Below, in pieces: positions 25,761 to 32,719 of a DNA stretch of 51,014 nucleotides. The notes below the pieces were generated by a model that worked only from the letters and a program-made list of their open reading frames with translations, did not search any database and had not been told where the DNA came from. A program made the translations under genes and the position numbers. The stretch is taken from the NCBI GenBank assembly GCA_016208165.1, contig JACQYL010000034.1:1-51014 (forward strand), read 5' to 3'. Source of the DNA: Deltaproteobacteria bacterium (GTDB lineage: Bacteria > Desulfobacterota > Desulfarculia > JACQYL01). Position 1 is the stretch's first letter. Each line of letters opens with the position of its first letter.

Positions 25761-26075
25761 TCAATCGAACAGACGTGCCATGAAGCCTTTCTTCTCAGGA
25801 TCCGGCTGCGGGAGTCCAAGGAGCCGGCAGATCGTCGCCTCGAGTTCGTATTCCGAAACATCCGCTCCCTCGACCACGATCTCGTCGCCGACCATGACGG
25901 CCGGGGCCGCGGGCAAATCGAGTTCGAAGTATTCATCCGTCATGTACTCTGCTCTGGGTTTGGAAATGCTTTCGATTTCAACGTCGTATTTTTCGCCCAA
26001 CCTGGGCATAATCTTTTTAAAATGCTTTCACGGCTTGCCGTTGGGCTCGTTCATAAAAAAACGAACTTTAATCAT
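25761..26075 (-). CDS. Candidate selenoprotein: small thioredoxin-fold protein, Sec at residue 16
   Basis: From ATG 26075, with GAGAGGG five bases upstream, the frame reads MIKVRFFMNEPNGKP, then TGA (26030-26028), then KHFKKIMPRLGEKYDVEIE to a stop at 25761, for 104 residues with one in-frame TGA at codon 16. Only six codons after the TGA is another ATG (26009), so a standard caller would start there and cut off the first strand and active site. With TGA read as selenocysteine it looks like a thioredoxin fold: beta strand, active-site turn GKPU, helix, second strand, then a cis-proline-like LPAAPAVMVGDEIVVEG. A hairpin at 25995-26007 could be its SECIS. The N-terminal active-site cysteine position is glycine (GxPU), so Sec would act alone. 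Confidence 0.75.
25995..26007 (-). promoter_or_regulatory. Candidate bacterial SECIS hairpin of the thioredoxin-fold selenoprotein
   Basis: On the coding strand GCCCA-GGU-UGGGC forms a perfect five-base stem with a GGU loop. The loop starts 25 nt after the UGA, within the spacing accepted for bacterial SECIS elements (about 16-37 nt, with G in the first loop positions). Judged by eye only. Confidence 0.55.
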
Positions 26076-26112: not shown

Positions 26113-26616
26113 TTAGAACTTCTGTTCGCGAATGCTGTGGTAAACAGCCTTGCACATGGGAGAAATACCTCCCTTTTTCCCTTCCGGATTCTTGAAGCCT
26201 TCCGAACCTCGGAGACTCTCCAGATAATCTCGCGGTTCCGCCAGAGTGAGAAAGAACGGCTTGGCAGATGGAGGTTCGATCTTGAAAAGCCAACCGCTGC
26301 CGTATGGGTCCTCGATGACTTTTTGGGGATCGTACGGCAGTCCTTCGTTCGGATGAATTACCCCGTCCACCGGTGCGTCCAGATACAGCAACTTCTGGGT
26401 GATGGCCACTCCGACGCTCTGACCTATGGCAACGGTTTCTCCCTCGGACACCAGCCAATTGAAGTCATTGAATCCGCCCGCCAGCGTCAGCGCCGGCTCA
26501 CTCAAACCGAAAACAATCGTCTCGTTTTCCAGTTTGGCCCATAATCCCGTTTTCTTGACATAGCGCCGATCTTCAGGAATTTCGACGCGCTTGCCTAAGA
26601 ACTTGTCGATATGCAC
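26113..26616 (-). CDS. GcvH-like (lipoyl-domain) protein
   Basis: The 167-residue protein resembles the glycine-cleavage H protein: WAKLENETIVFGLSEPAL, the hairpin VSEGETVAIGQSVGVAI, and APVDGVIHPNEGLPYDPQKV followed by DPYGSGWLFKI. The lipoyl-lysine candidate is K75 (ITQKLLYLDAPVDG), one residue out of register with canonical H protein. A C-terminal extension ends with one cysteine (SPMCKAVYH). There is no glycine-cleavage gene nearby. GcvH-like proteins outside that complex act as lipoate-binding carriers, for example in sulfur oxidation with sHdr, and here the neighbours are thiol-redox proteins. The GTG start at 26616 has AAGGAG seven bases upstream. Confidence 0.85.
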   Translation of the reverse strand: MHIDKFLGKRVEIPEDRRYVKKTGLWAKLENETIVFGLSEPALTLAGGFNDFNWLVSEGETVAIGQSVGVAITQKLLYLDAPVDGVIHPNEGLPYDPQKVIEDPYGSGWLFKIEPPSAKPFFLTLAEPRDYLESLRGSEGFKNPEGKKGGISPMCKAVYHSIREQKF

Positions 26617-26637: not shown

Positions 26638-28428
26638 TTATCCGTCGGTTAGACGTTTAGTACTGTTTTCCGGACCTGGGATCGGAGATTCCTTGACCCG
26701 GTCCATCCGCCGGAGGAATTGCTCCGGAGGCTCGAAATCCACGAGACGCAAATCCCGCCGTTCTTTTCCCTGGGCGTCCAGAAAAATGATCGTGGGCACT
26801 CCCTTGATTTCAAAACGGTCCAACAAGCTTTCTTCCAAAATTTCCTGTTGTGCGTTCCCGGAACTGGTCAGATCCACTTTGATCATAACAAACCGTTTTC
26901 TTGCCCGATCGACGACCTCCGGATGACGAAATACGGCGTCTTCCAATTCACGGCAAGGAGCGCACCATTCCGCATAGAAGTCTATGATGACAGGCTTGCC
27001 GGTTTCACGGGCCTCGGCGACAATCTCCTCCGAATAACGGTTCCACTGTGCGCCCGGACCCTGCAGAATCCAGCCTCCGACCCAAAGCGCCGAGATACTC
27101 ACACCGATCACCAGAGTTACGAGCCTGATCCAGCCAAAGAGCCTTCCGGTCGAAGGAGTCTTCTCCAGCCATCCCAGGTGAAGACCCGCCGACAGGCTCA
27201 CCGCGGACAGGCCAAAGATGGTCGCCGTCTCCGGCAGCAGGGGCCGGATAAAGTAAACGGCCATAGCCACCAAAACCCAGCCCATGAGTTTGCGAATCCA
27301 TACCATCCATTGGCCGGATCGGGGAAGTTTATCGATAAGTCCTGAAAATAGGGCTAGAAAAAAGAGCGGGAGCCCGAGACCCACGCTCAACGTGAAAAAC
27401 ACCAGGAAGCCGATCCCCGGGGAGCCCATGCCCGCGACCCAGGTGAGCAGTCCCAGAACAAACGGTCCAAGACACGGGGCCGCAACCACCCCTAAAGTGA
27501 TTCCCATGAACAGGGAGCCGAAATATCCGGCGTAGGATCGGGAAGCCGCCTGGGTCAGAGACGAAGGAAGGCGAAGTTCCCAGAGACCGAACAGGCTCGA
27601 GGCAAACAAAACCAGAATCGCAGCTACCAGAATAAGCACCACCGGGTTCTGTAACGCCGCCCCAAGAAGCCCGCCGCTCAATGCCGCAATGACGCCCAGG
27701 ACCGAGTTGGTGATGCACAAACCTCCGATGTAAAGGGAACCGTGGACGATCAGCTGTCCCCGGCCGCCCCCGGACCGGCCACCGAAATAAGCCGCGGTGA
27801 TGGGAATCAACGGATATACGCACGGAGTCAGGTTGAGAGCGATTCCGCCCAGAAAAACGCCCAGAAGGGTCCAAATGATGCCCAAGCCGGACAAGGTCCC
27901 AGGGGCTCCGGATGATTCGGTTAACCCGGGGGCCTCCAGAGAAGACCGCTCCACAGGCATACCCGCCGCCTGCCAGTCCGGATACCCTTTGGGGTCACGA
28001 AACACATTGGTGTAGCCTGATTGAACGGCCACCCGGGCCGCCGAGTCGCTCCGGACTCAGGTCAGTCCCGCTCAGTAGAAAACAACGAATCGTTCCTTAT
28101 CCGGCCCGAGGAGGCGTTCCAAAGACTTCTGTTTCCGCCAACGGGACCACCATGTCGGCTCCATGGGAAAGTTTACCGCACCCTTGATGTGGCCGGCGCG
28201 GTATTCCCATTCCTGCCGTGTATCCACAAGCAGAAGGCTCTCCGGATTCTCCCGATACCGTTTCCCCAGTTCCTCCGTACGGATGAGTTTGTAGCCGCCT
28301 TTTTCGGCTTCGCTGACCACGTCTTCCCAGGAAGCCTGCTTAGGGCTCAGGGAGCGGCTGGTGTACCAGAGCACGCCCGCTACCAGCAGGAGGGCTGAGA
28401 TTAACGCGAAAAATACTTTTTGGCTCAT
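26638..28428 (-). CDS. Candidate selenoprotein: membrane-anchored rhodanese-DsbD-thioredoxin fusion with two Sec codons
   Basis: Start at ATG 28428, with CGAGGA upstream; 596 residues if two in-frame TGAs are read. The order is an N-terminal membrane anchor (about 5-23), then a rhodanese domain with DTRQEWEYRAGHIKGAVNFP. Its active-site segment reads VVFY-TGA-AGLT-TGA-VRSDSAARVA (codons 28074-28072 and 28059-28057, residues 119 and 124), where relatives have cysteines. The domain closes with GYTNVFRDPKGYPDW. Next comes a DsbD/CcdA-like eight-helix domain with the redox cysteines C203 (LTPCVYPL) and C319 (AAPCLGPF), and a thioredoxin domain with WCAPC (C489, C492). It would pass electrons across the membrane to a periplasmic rhodanese selenol. 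A caller that stops at TGA splits it into two genes at 28072 and 28032. Confidence 0.8.
28026..28040 (-). promoter_or_regulatory. Candidate SECIS hairpin serving the two UGA codons of the rhodanese domain
   Basis: On the coding strand CGGCC-CGGGU-GGCCG pairs perfectly. Its loop begins about 21 nt after the second UGA and about 36 nt after the first, both within the usual bacterial window. The region is GC-rich, so chance hairpins are possible. Confidence 0.45.
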
Positions 28429-28509: not shown

Positions 28510-28965
28510 TCAGAGTTTTTCTTCCTTCTGCAGTTTCTTTAGAAGAAAGTTGGCGCCCGACCGGGATAGTCCCAGTTCTTTCGACAAGGTATCGGAATCA
28601 ATAACGGGGCTCCGCCTTGCCAGTGAAAGCACTTCGCGCTCGAGTTCTTCCAGCCAATCCTCGAAAAGCACCAGCAGATCCGGTTCGGCAACGGACATGA
28701 GCAGCTTGGAACGGGCGACTTTATCCATCAGGGTCTGACACATGCGTGTTGGATCGACACCTTCGTCCATGCATTCCGCCAGTCATAGATGAACCATGCT
28801 GCCGATCTTTTCATCTTCCGCCTCTCCGAAAAGGTCCATCACGAATTCGATCCGGGCCCCCTCATCCAGCACGGGGAGCAGTTTTTTCATCGTGCTCGAT
28901 AACATGGATAACGCTGCTTCCGGCTCCATGTCCTCAACGATGGTGTCTATTGCGGTCGTGTCCAT
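28510..28965 (-). CDS. Candidate selenoprotein: small helical protein with C-terminal HTH-like segment, Sec at residue 61
   Basis: Start at ATG 28965 with GGGAGA upstream, 18 bases after the ArsR gene. The frame is interrupted once, by TGA at 28785-28783, and continues at once through LAECMDEGVDPTRMCQTLMD to a stop at 28510. If TGA is selenocysteine the protein has 151 residues, with U61 and C65 as a possible selenenylsulfide pair (U-x3-C). The first 60 residues are helical and acidic (MLSSTMKKLLPVLDEGARI). The last 30 (IDSDTLSKELGLSRSGANFL) look like a helix-turn-helix. I do not recognise the family. A standard caller would give two small genes. A hairpin at 28751-28768 is a SECIS candidate. 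Confidence 0.68.
28751..28768 (-). promoter_or_regulatory. Candidate SECIS hairpin of the small helical selenoprotein
   Basis: On the coding strand GGA-CGA-AGGUG-UCG-A-UCC forms a six-base stem with one bulged A and an AGGUG loop, close to the AGGUCU loop of E. coli fdhF. The loop begins about 20 nt after the UGA. Judged by eye only. Confidence 0.5.
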
Positions 28966-28983: not shown

Positions 28984-29355
28984 TTAGAAAGTGTCTCTGT
29001 GCGCGAGGAGGCGCGTCGCAAGATTCGACAAGGCTTTCAAGATACCTATGGTATCTCTGTCCGCCATCTCGTAGTAGACAAAGGGACCCCGGCGTTCCAC
29101 TTGAACCAGCAACGCATGTCTCAATTCCTTCAAATGATGCGACACGAGGGGCTGGGAGAGATGGAGTTCTTTCACGATGACCGAAACGGGCTTTTTGCCA
29201 CGGCTTACGGAAAAAAGGATGCGCAACCGGTTTTCGTCGGACAGGGATTTGGCGAGAAAGGCCACGTCGGCATAGTTATCACCCGTAAGTGGCTCTTCGG
29301 GCTCGAGGTCGATCCTGAGTTCTTCATGTTCATCAGTGGCGCCGGTTCTACTCAC
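28984..29355 (-). CDS. ArsR-family transcriptional regulator heading the selenoprotein operon
   Basis: The 123-residue protein has a winged helix typical of ArsR/SmtB: LAKSLSDENRLRILFSVSRG, the recognition helix KELHLSQPLVSHHLKELRHA and the wing VERRGPFVYYEMAD. It lacks the CVC metal site of classical ArsR and contains no cysteine, so it may sense something other than arsenite or use other ligands. The acidic leader (about 1-25) is unusual. The start is GTG 29355. It is the first gene of a six-gene minus-strand operon and probably controls it. A sigma-70-like promoter lies at 29566-29595. Confidence 0.9.
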   Translation of the reverse strand: MSRTGATDEHEELRIDLEPEEPLTGDNYADVAFLAKSLSDENRLRILFSVSRGKKPVSVIVKELHLSQPLVSHHLKELRHALLVQVERRGPFVYYEMADRDTIGILKALSNLATRLLAHRDTF

Positions 29356-29699: not shown

Positions 29700-30017
29700 A
29701 TGACCCTTCAAGACCGAGACATCTTCAAGATGAAAGCGCACGTGGCCAAGGCCCTGGCGCACGAAAGCCGGCTCATCATGCTCGACGCCCTCAAAAACGG
29801 CGATATGTGCGTCTGCGATTTGACGGACCTGATAGGGGCGGACCAATCCACCGTGTCCAAGCACCTGTCCGTTTTGAAGAACTCCGGCATCCTCAGTGAC
29901 CGCAAGGAAGGAAACAAGGTCTACTATCATCTCGATACGCCTTGCGTGCTGGACTTCTTCACCTGCGCTCTGGAAGTGATCCGCCGGCGCACGGAGACGT
30001 TTCGAGTGATCCGGTAA
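29700..30017 (+). CDS. arsR: ArsR-family arsenite/metal-responsive repressor
   Basis: The 105-residue winged-helix repressor has the classical arsenic-binding helix DMCVCDLTDLIG (C-V-C), the recognition helix QSTVSKHLSVLKNSG and the wing RKEGNKVYYHLD. A third cysteine near residue 82 (DTPCVLDFFTCAL) may complete the site. ArsR releases DNA on binding As(III) or Sb(III). A dyad overlapping the -10 box just upstream is its likely operator. It is the first gene of a plus-strand arsenic-type operon and is divergent from a second, cysteine-free ArsR. Confidence 0.93.
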   Translation: MTLQDRDIFKMKAHVAKALAHESRLIMLDALKNGDMCVCDLTDLIGADQSTVSKHLSVLKNSGILSDRKEGNKVYYHLDTPCVLDFFTCALEVIRRRTETFRVIR

Positions 30018-30404
30018 GGACCGGATGCGGGTGTGGTTCTAAGAAATGGACATATGACCACAGGCCCGTCCTATGTCCGCAAGCCGCCCGCTCTTCTTCG
30101 AGATCGGCCGGTCCCGTCCTCGCCGAATAGGCCGCCGACCGGAAGCGTCACGGCTGCGGACAAACTGCGGTGCTTCGTTTAATCGTCATTGTTCCGTGAA
30201 CGATCGCACGCATGCCATAACAGCCCGTTGAAAAAGCCGGGTTATTACAGGCCGCTGAAAAACGATGAGATGCAAGGCGCGCAAATTCCTATGAATGAGG
30301 CGTACATAGAGTACGTCGCAGTGACGAGGGATGAAGCGCAACGCCGCAGATCGCGTTTTTCAACGGCCTGATAGGGGTTACGGTCAGGATAGGAGACAAC
30401 GGCC
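30018..30404 (+). other. Gap between arsR and the next gene, occupied by repeat sequence
   Basis: No gene is supported in these 387 bases. The second half holds a 123-bp inverted-repeat element (30248-30370) and a separate 16-base element end (30221-30236). In related operons a transporter gene is often found near this position. Confidence 0.5.
30248..30370 (-). mobile_element. 123-bp MITE-like repeat, copy 1
   Basis: The element is bounded by 17-base terminal inverted repeats (CAGGCCGCTGAAAAACG and CGTTTTTCAACGGCCTG, one mismatch). It matches the segment at 46677-46799 in inverted orientation over the same length, with roughly ten differences. It is too short to encode a transposase. Reading through it gives an open frame that should not be taken for a gene. 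A second, isolated element end (CAGCCCGTTGAAAAAG) is at 30221-30236. Confidence 0.75.
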
Positions 30405-30896
30405 ATGACGGAGGATGTGACCCGAATTCGTGTCGGGAAAAACACAATCGGCATCACCGGTCTGAAAAGCGTGCTGGAAGAATTGGCGACATCTCACTCG
30501 GAGACTTCCGATGACGAAGTCCGCCGACTGATGCTGGACCGGCTGAGCCGCGACAACTACATTCCGAACACAGCGAGAGACGAATACGGTAACGCGTTTG
30601 TTCGCGAGTTCCGCAAATTCCTCGGGCAGGCCCGCGAAGAACCTCCCGAGCGGGAACTGACTATTCAGGTGCTGGGGCCGGGTTGCTCCCAGTGCGAACG
30701 TCTGGAACACATCGTTATGCAAATCCTGACGGAGATGAACCTTGGCGCCTTCGTGGAACACGTGAAGAACGTCAAAGAAATAGGTGAATTCGGGGTAATG
30801 GGCGCGCCCGCGCTGGTGATCAACGGGAAAGTGGTGTGCGTGGGGAAAATACCTCCCGTTGGTAAAATCAAAGAGTGGCTTCTCGAAGCCAAATGA
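30405..30896 (+). CDS. Thioredoxin-family redox protein (redox-active disulfide protein) with N-terminal extension
   Basis: Residues about 85-163 form a small thioredoxin fold of the TM0996/MTH895 type with the active site GPGCSQCERL (C94, C97) and the cis-proline region VMGAPALVINGKVV. The first 80 residues are an extra helical domain with no cysteine (HSETSDDEVRRLMLDRLSRD). Proteins of this kind are common in arsenic operons of anaerobic deltaproteobacteria, where they may reduce ArsC or handle thiol-arsenic species. The gene follows the 123-bp repeat. Confidence 0.85.
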   Translation: MTEDVTRIRVGKNTIGITGLKSVLEELATSHSETSDDEVRRLMLDRLSRDNYIPNTARDEYGNAFVREFRKFLGQAREEPPERELTIQVLGPGCSQCERLEHIVMQILTEMNLGAFVEHVKNVKEIGEFGVMGAPALVINGKVVCVGKIPPVGKIKEWLLEAK

Positions 30897-31001
30897 CCCG
30901 ATGAGAAACGATACGAAGCATCAGAGAAACCAACGGAAATCGGAGTCCCGAAACCATAAGGCCGGGAAGCCGCTTTTCGTCTAAGGTTCAAGGAGGACGT
31001 C

Positions 31002-31421
31002 ATGGCGCAGGATTGCTGCACTCCAAGCGGAAACATCATGATATTGGCCTGCTCCGGAGGATCAAACGTGGGCCAGCTTTCCAACCAGGCCGCGGTGGAG
31101 CTTACCCGGGAAGGGTTTGGAAAGATGTTTTGTCTGGCGGGCATCGGGGGAGGTCTAAGCGGTTTTGTCCAGTCCGCCAGGGACGTACCGAGTCTGGTGG
31201 TCATCGACGGCTGTTCCGTTGCTTGCGCCAAAGCTACCTTCGAGCAGGCCGATGTCCCGTTGAGAGGGTATCTGGTGATTACCGATCTGGGTATCGAGAA
31301 AAACAAGGATTTCAATCTGAAGCCCGAAGACCTGGCCCGGGTGAAGCAAGCGGTGCGCGACGCGGCCAAAAGTCAGACCTCGGCGGCGGCGGGCGAGGCG
31401 ACTTCGAACTGCTGCTGCTGA
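31002..31421 (+). CDS. Putative zinc-binding protein, DGC-domain family
   Basis: The 139-residue protein matches the DGC family: CSGGSNVGQLSNQAAVEL, LAGIGGGLSGF and the name-giving VIDGCSVACAKATFE. Eight or so cysteines include a CC near the start and CCC at the C-terminus, so metal or metalloid binding is likely. Family members sit in arsenic operons and are suspected to bind zinc, but no biochemical role is established. AAGGAGG lies nine bases before the ATG. Confidence 0.88.
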   Translation: MAQDCCTPSGNIMILACSGGSNVGQLSNQAAVELTREGFGKMFCLAGIGGGLSGFVQSARDVPSLVVIDGCSVACAKATFEQADVPLRGYLVITDLGIEKNKDFNLKPEDLARVKQAVRDAAKSQTSAAAGEATSNCCC

Positions 31422-31449
31422 AGGGAATTAAACTCGAGAGTGAAGAAGC

Positions 31450-31968
31450 ATGAAAGCCCCCCATAAGATCCGCATAGTGTATCTGTGTACGGGAAACTCC
31501 TGTAGAAGTCAGATGGCCGAAGCCTGGACCCGTGAGCTGAAAGGCGACCTTGTGGAACCCTATTCCGCGGGCATCGAGGTTCACGCGCTGGACCCTCTGG
31601 CGGTTCAAGTGATGGCCGAGGTCGGTTTGGACATTTCTCACCAGAGATCCAAGCATATCGACGCGGTACGGCATCTGACCTTCGATTATGTGATCACCCT
31701 GTGCGATCACGCCCACCAGACCTGTCCGGTGTTTCCCTCGGACACCAAGGTGGTCCACAAAGCATTCGACGATCCGCCCGGGTTGGCCTCCAAATCACGA
31801 ACCAGGGAGGAAGCCGTCCGGCATTACCGGAGAGTTCGGGACGAGATCAGGGCCTTCGTGGAAACACTTCCGGACGCTCTGGAAGAATCGACGGAAACGA
31901 AGGATCCGATATTTGAAGCCGGAATTAAAGGATTTTTAAACGATCTGCCCGGCAAGCGCACGAAATAG
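31450..31968 (+). CDS. arsC: Arsenate reductase, low-molecular-weight phosphatase type
   Basis: The 172-residue protein carries the phosphatase-type P-loop CTGNSCRS (C13 to R19), the redox cysteine pair in TLCDHAHQTCPVFP, and the general-acid aspartate in AFDDPPG. It reduces As(V) to As(III) using thioredoxin as electron donor. Two thioredoxin-like proteins are encoded in the same operon. As(III) normally needs an efflux pump (ArsB, Acr3 or ArsP) and none is present in the window. A C-terminal extension of about 30 residues follows the usual end. Confidence 0.94.
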   Translation: MKAPHKIRIVYLCTGNSCRSQMAEAWTRELKGDLVEPYSAGIEVHALDPLAVQVMAEVGLDISHQRSKHIDAVRHLTFDYVITLCDHAHQTCPVFPSDTKVVHKAFDDPPGLASKSRTREEAVRHYRRVRDEIRAFVETLPDALEESTETKDPIFEAGIKGFLNDLPGKRTK

Positions 31969-32335
31969 AGAAGGCCGTCAGGCCGTTCAGCAACGACTTG
32001 GAACCGCTTGGTTGGTCGCACGCAAGCAGATTCAGCCACAGGGTTCGGTACCCCGGGGCAACCTGCGGCCTTGGCCTTGAAGGCCTTCATGGACCTTCCC
32101 GCTTGGGACCCATGTTCGGAGCTCAGACCCATGGAAGTCCCCGAATCTTAAAGAACGACACAAGCACAAGTTCTTGGCTTGTTCGAGAAATATATGTATA
32201 ACCGGGCGGCGCCCTGCATTCCGGGCAAAAATGCCATGCGCGGGTTCGCAAATCGGTGAATCGGCCGGGCCTGGACCTGAATCCCCGTGAGCTTGAACGC
32301 TCCTAGATCCTTTCAATATCCGGAGGTATGCTGTT
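31969..32335 (+). other. Intergenic, about 365 bp
   Basis: I see no gene, terminator or repeat between arsC and the periplasmic thioredoxin. The last 20 bases hold the CGGAGG ribosome site of the latter. Confidence 0.3.
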
Positions 32336-32719
32336 GTGCGTTTTCGAGTCTTGTTTGTCTTAACGATCTTACCGTTGTTGTGTGCAACACCTTCGCTGTC
32401 GGCCTCGGAAGCGTCAGCCGACGTCGCTCTTCCCGTAGAGGGGATGGTGACCATGATCGATTTCGGCGCCGACACCTGCATTCCCTGCAAGATGATGAAA
32501 CCGATTCTCGAAGAATTACACATGGAATATAAGGGTAAAGCCGCCATCGTTTACGTCGATATCCGCGGGCGATCGGACATTCCGCAAAAATACCGGTTAC
32601 GCGGCATACCCACTCAAGTGTTTTACGATACGTCCGGTAAAGAGGTGTACCGTCACGTTGGATTCATGGATAAAGCATCCGTCGAGAAACAGCTGCAAGA
32701 CATGGGCGTTCGCAAGTAG
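32336..32719 (+). CDS. Exported thioredoxin-like protein
   Basis: The 127-residue protein has a signal peptide (VRFRVLFVLTILPLLCATPS, cleavage probably after LSAS) and a thioredoxin domain with the active site CIPC (C48, C51) and the cis-proline YRLRGIPTQVFYD. It is a periplasmic thiol oxidoreductase that could receive electrons from the DsbD-like protein encoded in the divergent operon. The GTG start at 32336 is set by CGGAGG upstream; the ATG just before it is out of frame and closes quickly. Confidence 0.88.
   Translation: MRFRVLFVLTILPLLCATPSLSASEASADVALPVEGMVTMIDFGADTCIPCKMMKPILEELHMEYKGKAAIVYVDIRGRSDIPQKYRLRGIPTQVFYDTSGKEVYRHVGFMDKASVEKQLQDMGVRK

Follow-up and report, generated by a model that had tools for sequence, protein, structure and literature searches.

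DsbD proteins pass electrons across the membrane, from thioredoxin in the cytoplasm to the opposite side, and have an N-terminal domain of their own. A related selenoprotein, TsoB, has also been described. A 2026 review (PMC13188914) lists it with two selenocysteines (Sec) in a UxxxxU arrangement, with Haft & Tolstoy 2025, mSystems, as its source, and presents the Tso operon as a set of three selenoproteins on the authority of work by Haft and colleagues that includes the same 2025 paper. Both the protein and the operon were catalogued already in 2025; the operon occurs mainly in sulfate-reducer-type bacteria, and the locus described here is a fresh example and not a discovery. What it adds is a correction of the catalytic site, a covarying hairpin, a complete operon within the window and a paired change from Sec to Cys.

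The window, that is, the whole stretch of 51,014 nucleotides that was analysed (contig JACQYL010000034.1 of a Deltaproteobacteria bacterium), carries tsoB as the middle gene of a tso operon, with the selenoprotein genes tsoA and tsoC on either side, which the first-pass annotation had missed. The genes of the operon are:

28984..29355, minus strand: tsoR, ArsR/SmtB-type regulator (NCBIfam NF045707, 148.9 bits, cut-off 115)
28510..28965, minus strand: tsoA, LULAxC motif selenoprotein with its UGA at 28783-28785 (NCBIfam NF045695, 209.9 bits, cut-off 170)
26638..28428, minus strand: tsoB, rhodanese-DsbD-thioredoxin fusion selenoprotein with two Sec (NF045694 and Pfam)
26113..26616, minus strand: GcvH-related protein in the operon (NCBIfam NF045810, 231.4 bits, cut-off 150)
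25761..26075, minus strand: tsoC, NEPxGxxU motif selenoprotein with its UGA at 26028-26030 (NCBIfam NF045708, 151.5 bits, cut-off 45)

The internal UGAs of tsoA and tsoC are kept in every homologue found, and TsoR, TsoA and TsoC neighbours recur at homologous tsoB loci. A comparison of the window with Rfam families gave zero matches, and a search for plasmid DNA resembling it found none. A divergent cluster at 29700-32719 of the window encodes an ArsR-type regulator, an ArsE-like thioredoxin, a DGC-domain protein, an arsenate-reductase-like protein and a thioredoxin; at locus L048, relatives of the DGC and thioredoxin genes of this cluster are likewise found upstream of tsoB.

The tsoB gene appears as two open frames on the minus strand, 28482-28072 and 28032-26638. 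As the first-pass annotation had stated, these form a single frame broken only by TGA-GCG-GGA-CTG-ACC-TGA, and the reading was re-derived identically: with TGA read as a residue the translation runs VVFY-U-AGLT-U-VRSDSAARVA, and the next in-frame stop is a TAA. Translation likely starts at ATG 28428, with TTG 28482 as the alternative from which to count. The two internal codons are placed as follows:

28072..28074, minus strand: first UGA, U119 from the ATG and U137 from the TTG, at the canonical rhodanese catalytic position
28057..28059, minus strand: second UGA, U124 from the ATG and U142 from the TTG, at an extra position of the active-site loop

The product of about 596 residues comprises a membrane anchor, a rhodanese domain with the U-AGLT-U loop, a DsbD-like membrane domain and a WCAPC thioredoxin domain. 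A Pfam search recovered Rhodanese, DsbD_TM and Thioredoxin_7 domains, with the rhodanese domain (PF00581) at 56.9 bits against a cut-off of 22.2, in line with the earlier statement that the remaining parts of the fusion are intact. This plan is also consistent with fold matches and with an AlphaFold model of moderate overall confidence (pLDDT 73, pTM 0.50). Against NCBIfam NF045694 (TsoB, "rhodanese/DsbD fusion-like selenoprotein") the protein scores 977.5 bits, where the curated cut-off is 805. Judged from its sequence, the gene very probably encodes TsoB of the tso operon, with both UGAs decoded as selenocysteine.

The first-pass annotation had assigned the persulfide-forming position to the second U, and this assignment has to be reversed: the catalytic Cys of the solved rhodaneses 6mxv and 3d1p, and of CDC25 relatives of the same fold, aligns with the first U (VVFY-U). 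In the AlphaFold model the first U directly follows the strand 114-118 and stands ahead of a helix that begins at 126. The active-site loop of TsoB is two residues longer than in 6mxv and 3d1p, and the second U is the extra one. The earlier idea of a double-Sec rhodanese joined to its own DsbD-type reductase therefore stands as regards the fusion and the two conserved Sec positions, and changes as regards which U is catalytic.

Conservation of the two codons was examined in 34 TsoB loci from other genomes and contigs, one pair of which (L022 and L048) is identical in this region. In the homologue alignment both columns hold either UGA or Cys: 33 of the 34 loci, among them the isolate Desulfacinum infernum DSM 9756, have UGA at both, and the remaining one, L061, has TGC and TGT (Cys/Cys). 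In these 33 loci the frame is interrupted exactly at the two Cys columns, in every case by UGA and not by UAA or UAG. In the 27 loci that could be read end to end, TGA does not appear in frame anywhere else until the end region of the gene is reached. An alignment of 27 proteins (U written as C) shows no variation at the two Sec positions or at the four relay cysteines. This independent set of loci supports the presence of two Sec in the rhodanese loop of TsoB. At locus L058, TsoB runs from 3304 onward with both UGAs kept and part of the active-site helix/loop region absent, probably through a deletion or an assembly error, for which reason the structural counts do not include it.

In the tree, TsoB forms a well-supported clade (support 100/99). 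Since the Cys/Cys form of L061 is nested inside the UGA clade, beside a sister with UGA/UGA, it is most simply read as a secondary change. The occurrence of Cys at both sites in one lineage suggests that the two residues act together. Treating L061 as a case of lost hairpins was rejected: by eye, its second stem still pairs and its first is merely weakened. Near this TsoB gene, at 5288-6139 of L061, lies a methyltransferase-like frame that has a TGA in frame ahead of IGGALP and may encode a selenoprotein of the arsenite-methyltransferase type.

Signals in the RNA point to the same region of the gene. Synonymous conservation across the whole of tsoB peaks at codons 142-151, just past the UGAs (z 6.4 relative to the rest of the gene), and two hairpins can be drawn there:

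28041..28060, minus strand: candidate hairpin 1, whose CGNAGC loop lies about 18 nt downstream of the first UGA and whose stem contains the second UGA
28025..28041, minus strand: hairpin 2, bacterial SECIS-like, whose CGGGU loop lies about 21 nt downstream of the second UGA

Hairpin 2 is paired in 31 of 31 sequences; in eight cells both sides of the stem have changed, at wobble positions, and its covariation score was reached by none of 500 shuffles. Hairpin 1 is paired in 88% of cells of the homologue alignment and its stem is strongly conserved, with covariation absent, so that it stands as an unproven candidate; the protein is nearly invariant at this site and leaves little room for covariation. 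An extension of hairpin 1 (5-10/36-41) was discarded for showing no excess covariation and for overlapping hairpin 2. Alternatively, hairpin 2, at a distance of about 36 nt, could act on the first UGA as well. Folded alone, the window sequence is unexceptional (z of -1.5 and -0.5).

The genome from which the window derives encodes much of the machinery for selenocysteine insertion. It contains a tRNA-Sec (77 bits, anticodon TCA), and profile searches recovered selB (384 bits) and selD (362 bits). The first-pass annotation had named the sel genes as a check on its reading, and this check came out favourably for these three; the match to selA consists of two segments in different frames and falls about 130 nt short of the family model (G000 contig 48, 84608-85842, locus L129), possibly through an assembly error or a real break. 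Each of the seven TsoB genomes tested yielded selB above the cut-off, and this co-occurrence is weak evidence, because selB is common in relatives anyway (73 of 98). In two TsoB genomes, G008 and G020, no tRNA-Sec exceeded the cut-off. Within the window, UGA ends neighbouring genes as an ordinary stop, those of tsoA and tsoC included, which agrees with the earlier view that reassignment of UGA is unlikely.

A second TsoB is present in the same genome, on contig 98. It has UGA at both positions, scores 989.8 bits against NF045694, lies about 3 kb from selB and branches elsewhere in the TsoB clade than the window copy. The surrounding region (locus L127, G000 contig 98, 60000-76000) also holds a TsoC near selB and a TVP38/TMEM64-like gene downstream; no TsoA match was found beside it.

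These observations bear on two other ways of reading the UGAs. Were they plain stops, the locus would encode two proteins, one a short piece of rhodanese and the other a DsbD-thioredoxin protein starting at GTG 28032, as the listing of both frames as separate ORFs under table 11 would have it. Such a break would, however, cut the active-site loop, and it fits poorly with 33 loci that place UGA and no other stop at two Cys columns, with Cys codons in the sole exception, or with the conserved RNA structure downstream; we consider it scarcely credible. A suppressor tRNA that decodes UGA as cysteine or another residue would suit L061, a natural homologue with Cys at both sites. It sits badly with the presence of tRNA-Sec, selB and selD, with the normal use of UGA as a stop in adjacent genes and with the SECIS-like hairpin after the UGAs, and is only marginally easier to believe than two separate proteins.

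A different rival concerns function and leaves the decoding as Sec untouched: TsoB might be a plain reductase, acting on peroxide, selenite, arsenic or similar, in which the rhodanese fold no longer transfers sulfur. The lengthened loop, together with the ArsR-type regulator and the arsenate-reductase-like genes nearby, speaks in its favour, whereas TsoB retains an intact rhodanese fold and the canonical catalytic position, and an ArsR-rhodanese fusion directly upstream of tsoB in four loci (L049, L055, L062 and L088) suggests a link to sulfur. We take it as a serious contender that we nevertheless doubt. The fusion gene in these loci has a CxxxxC loop, and tsoA was not found there.

Transfer of sulfur or selenium by TsoB is plausible from its sequence, and the likely role of the protein is that of a sulfur/selenium transferase-reductase that works outside the inner membrane and draws on an electron relay of its own; its membrane orientation and its substrate are ones that we infer. 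Comparison of relatives supports decoding of both UGAs by SelB and tRNA-Sec under the direction of hairpins just downstream, and TsoR would probably control expression. The N-terminal helix would hold the rhodanese domain outside the membrane, where the first Sec would accept sulfane sulfur (or selenium), and the second Sec, which sits in the same loop five residues further along, would resolve it as a diselenide, releasing the chalcogen. Electrons from the cytoplasm would then pass through the DsbD-type membrane pair C203/C319 to C489/C492 of the WCAPC motif and re-reduce the Sec pair (ATG numbering). Taken alone, this route from rhodanese to relay is about as likely to be right as wrong; it offers a concrete and testable mechanism for the biochemical role of the tso operon.

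A fuller scheme can be proposed, which we hold only tentatively and think rather unlikely as a whole. Each UGA would have its own hairpin, the two adjoining or sharing bases, with the first unwound at the second UGA while the second stays, so that a two-step recoding element would lie within the active site; the Sec pair would form the diselenide of a sulfur/selenium transferase coupled to an electron relay in the membrane.

Compared with known systems, the window gene shares with TsoB (NF045694) the domain order, the two-Sec UxxxxU motif and the TsoA, TsoC and TsoR neighbours, and no defining difference was found. Its particulars are the second TsoB copy of its genome, placed elsewhere in the clade, and the GcvH-related gene between tsoB and tsoC. 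With DsbD (NF001419), whose profile it matches at 249 bits, under the cut-off of 330, it has in common the two-Cys membrane domain and the C-terminal CxxC thioredoxin domain, but TsoB carries a Sec rhodanese in place of DsbD's own N-terminal domain. CxxxxC rhodaneses, for instance those that are fused to ArsR and precede some tsoB genes, show the same four-residue spacing of two chalcogen residues in the active-site loop; TsoB, in contrast, has Sec for Cys and carries a membrane reductase on the same polypeptide.
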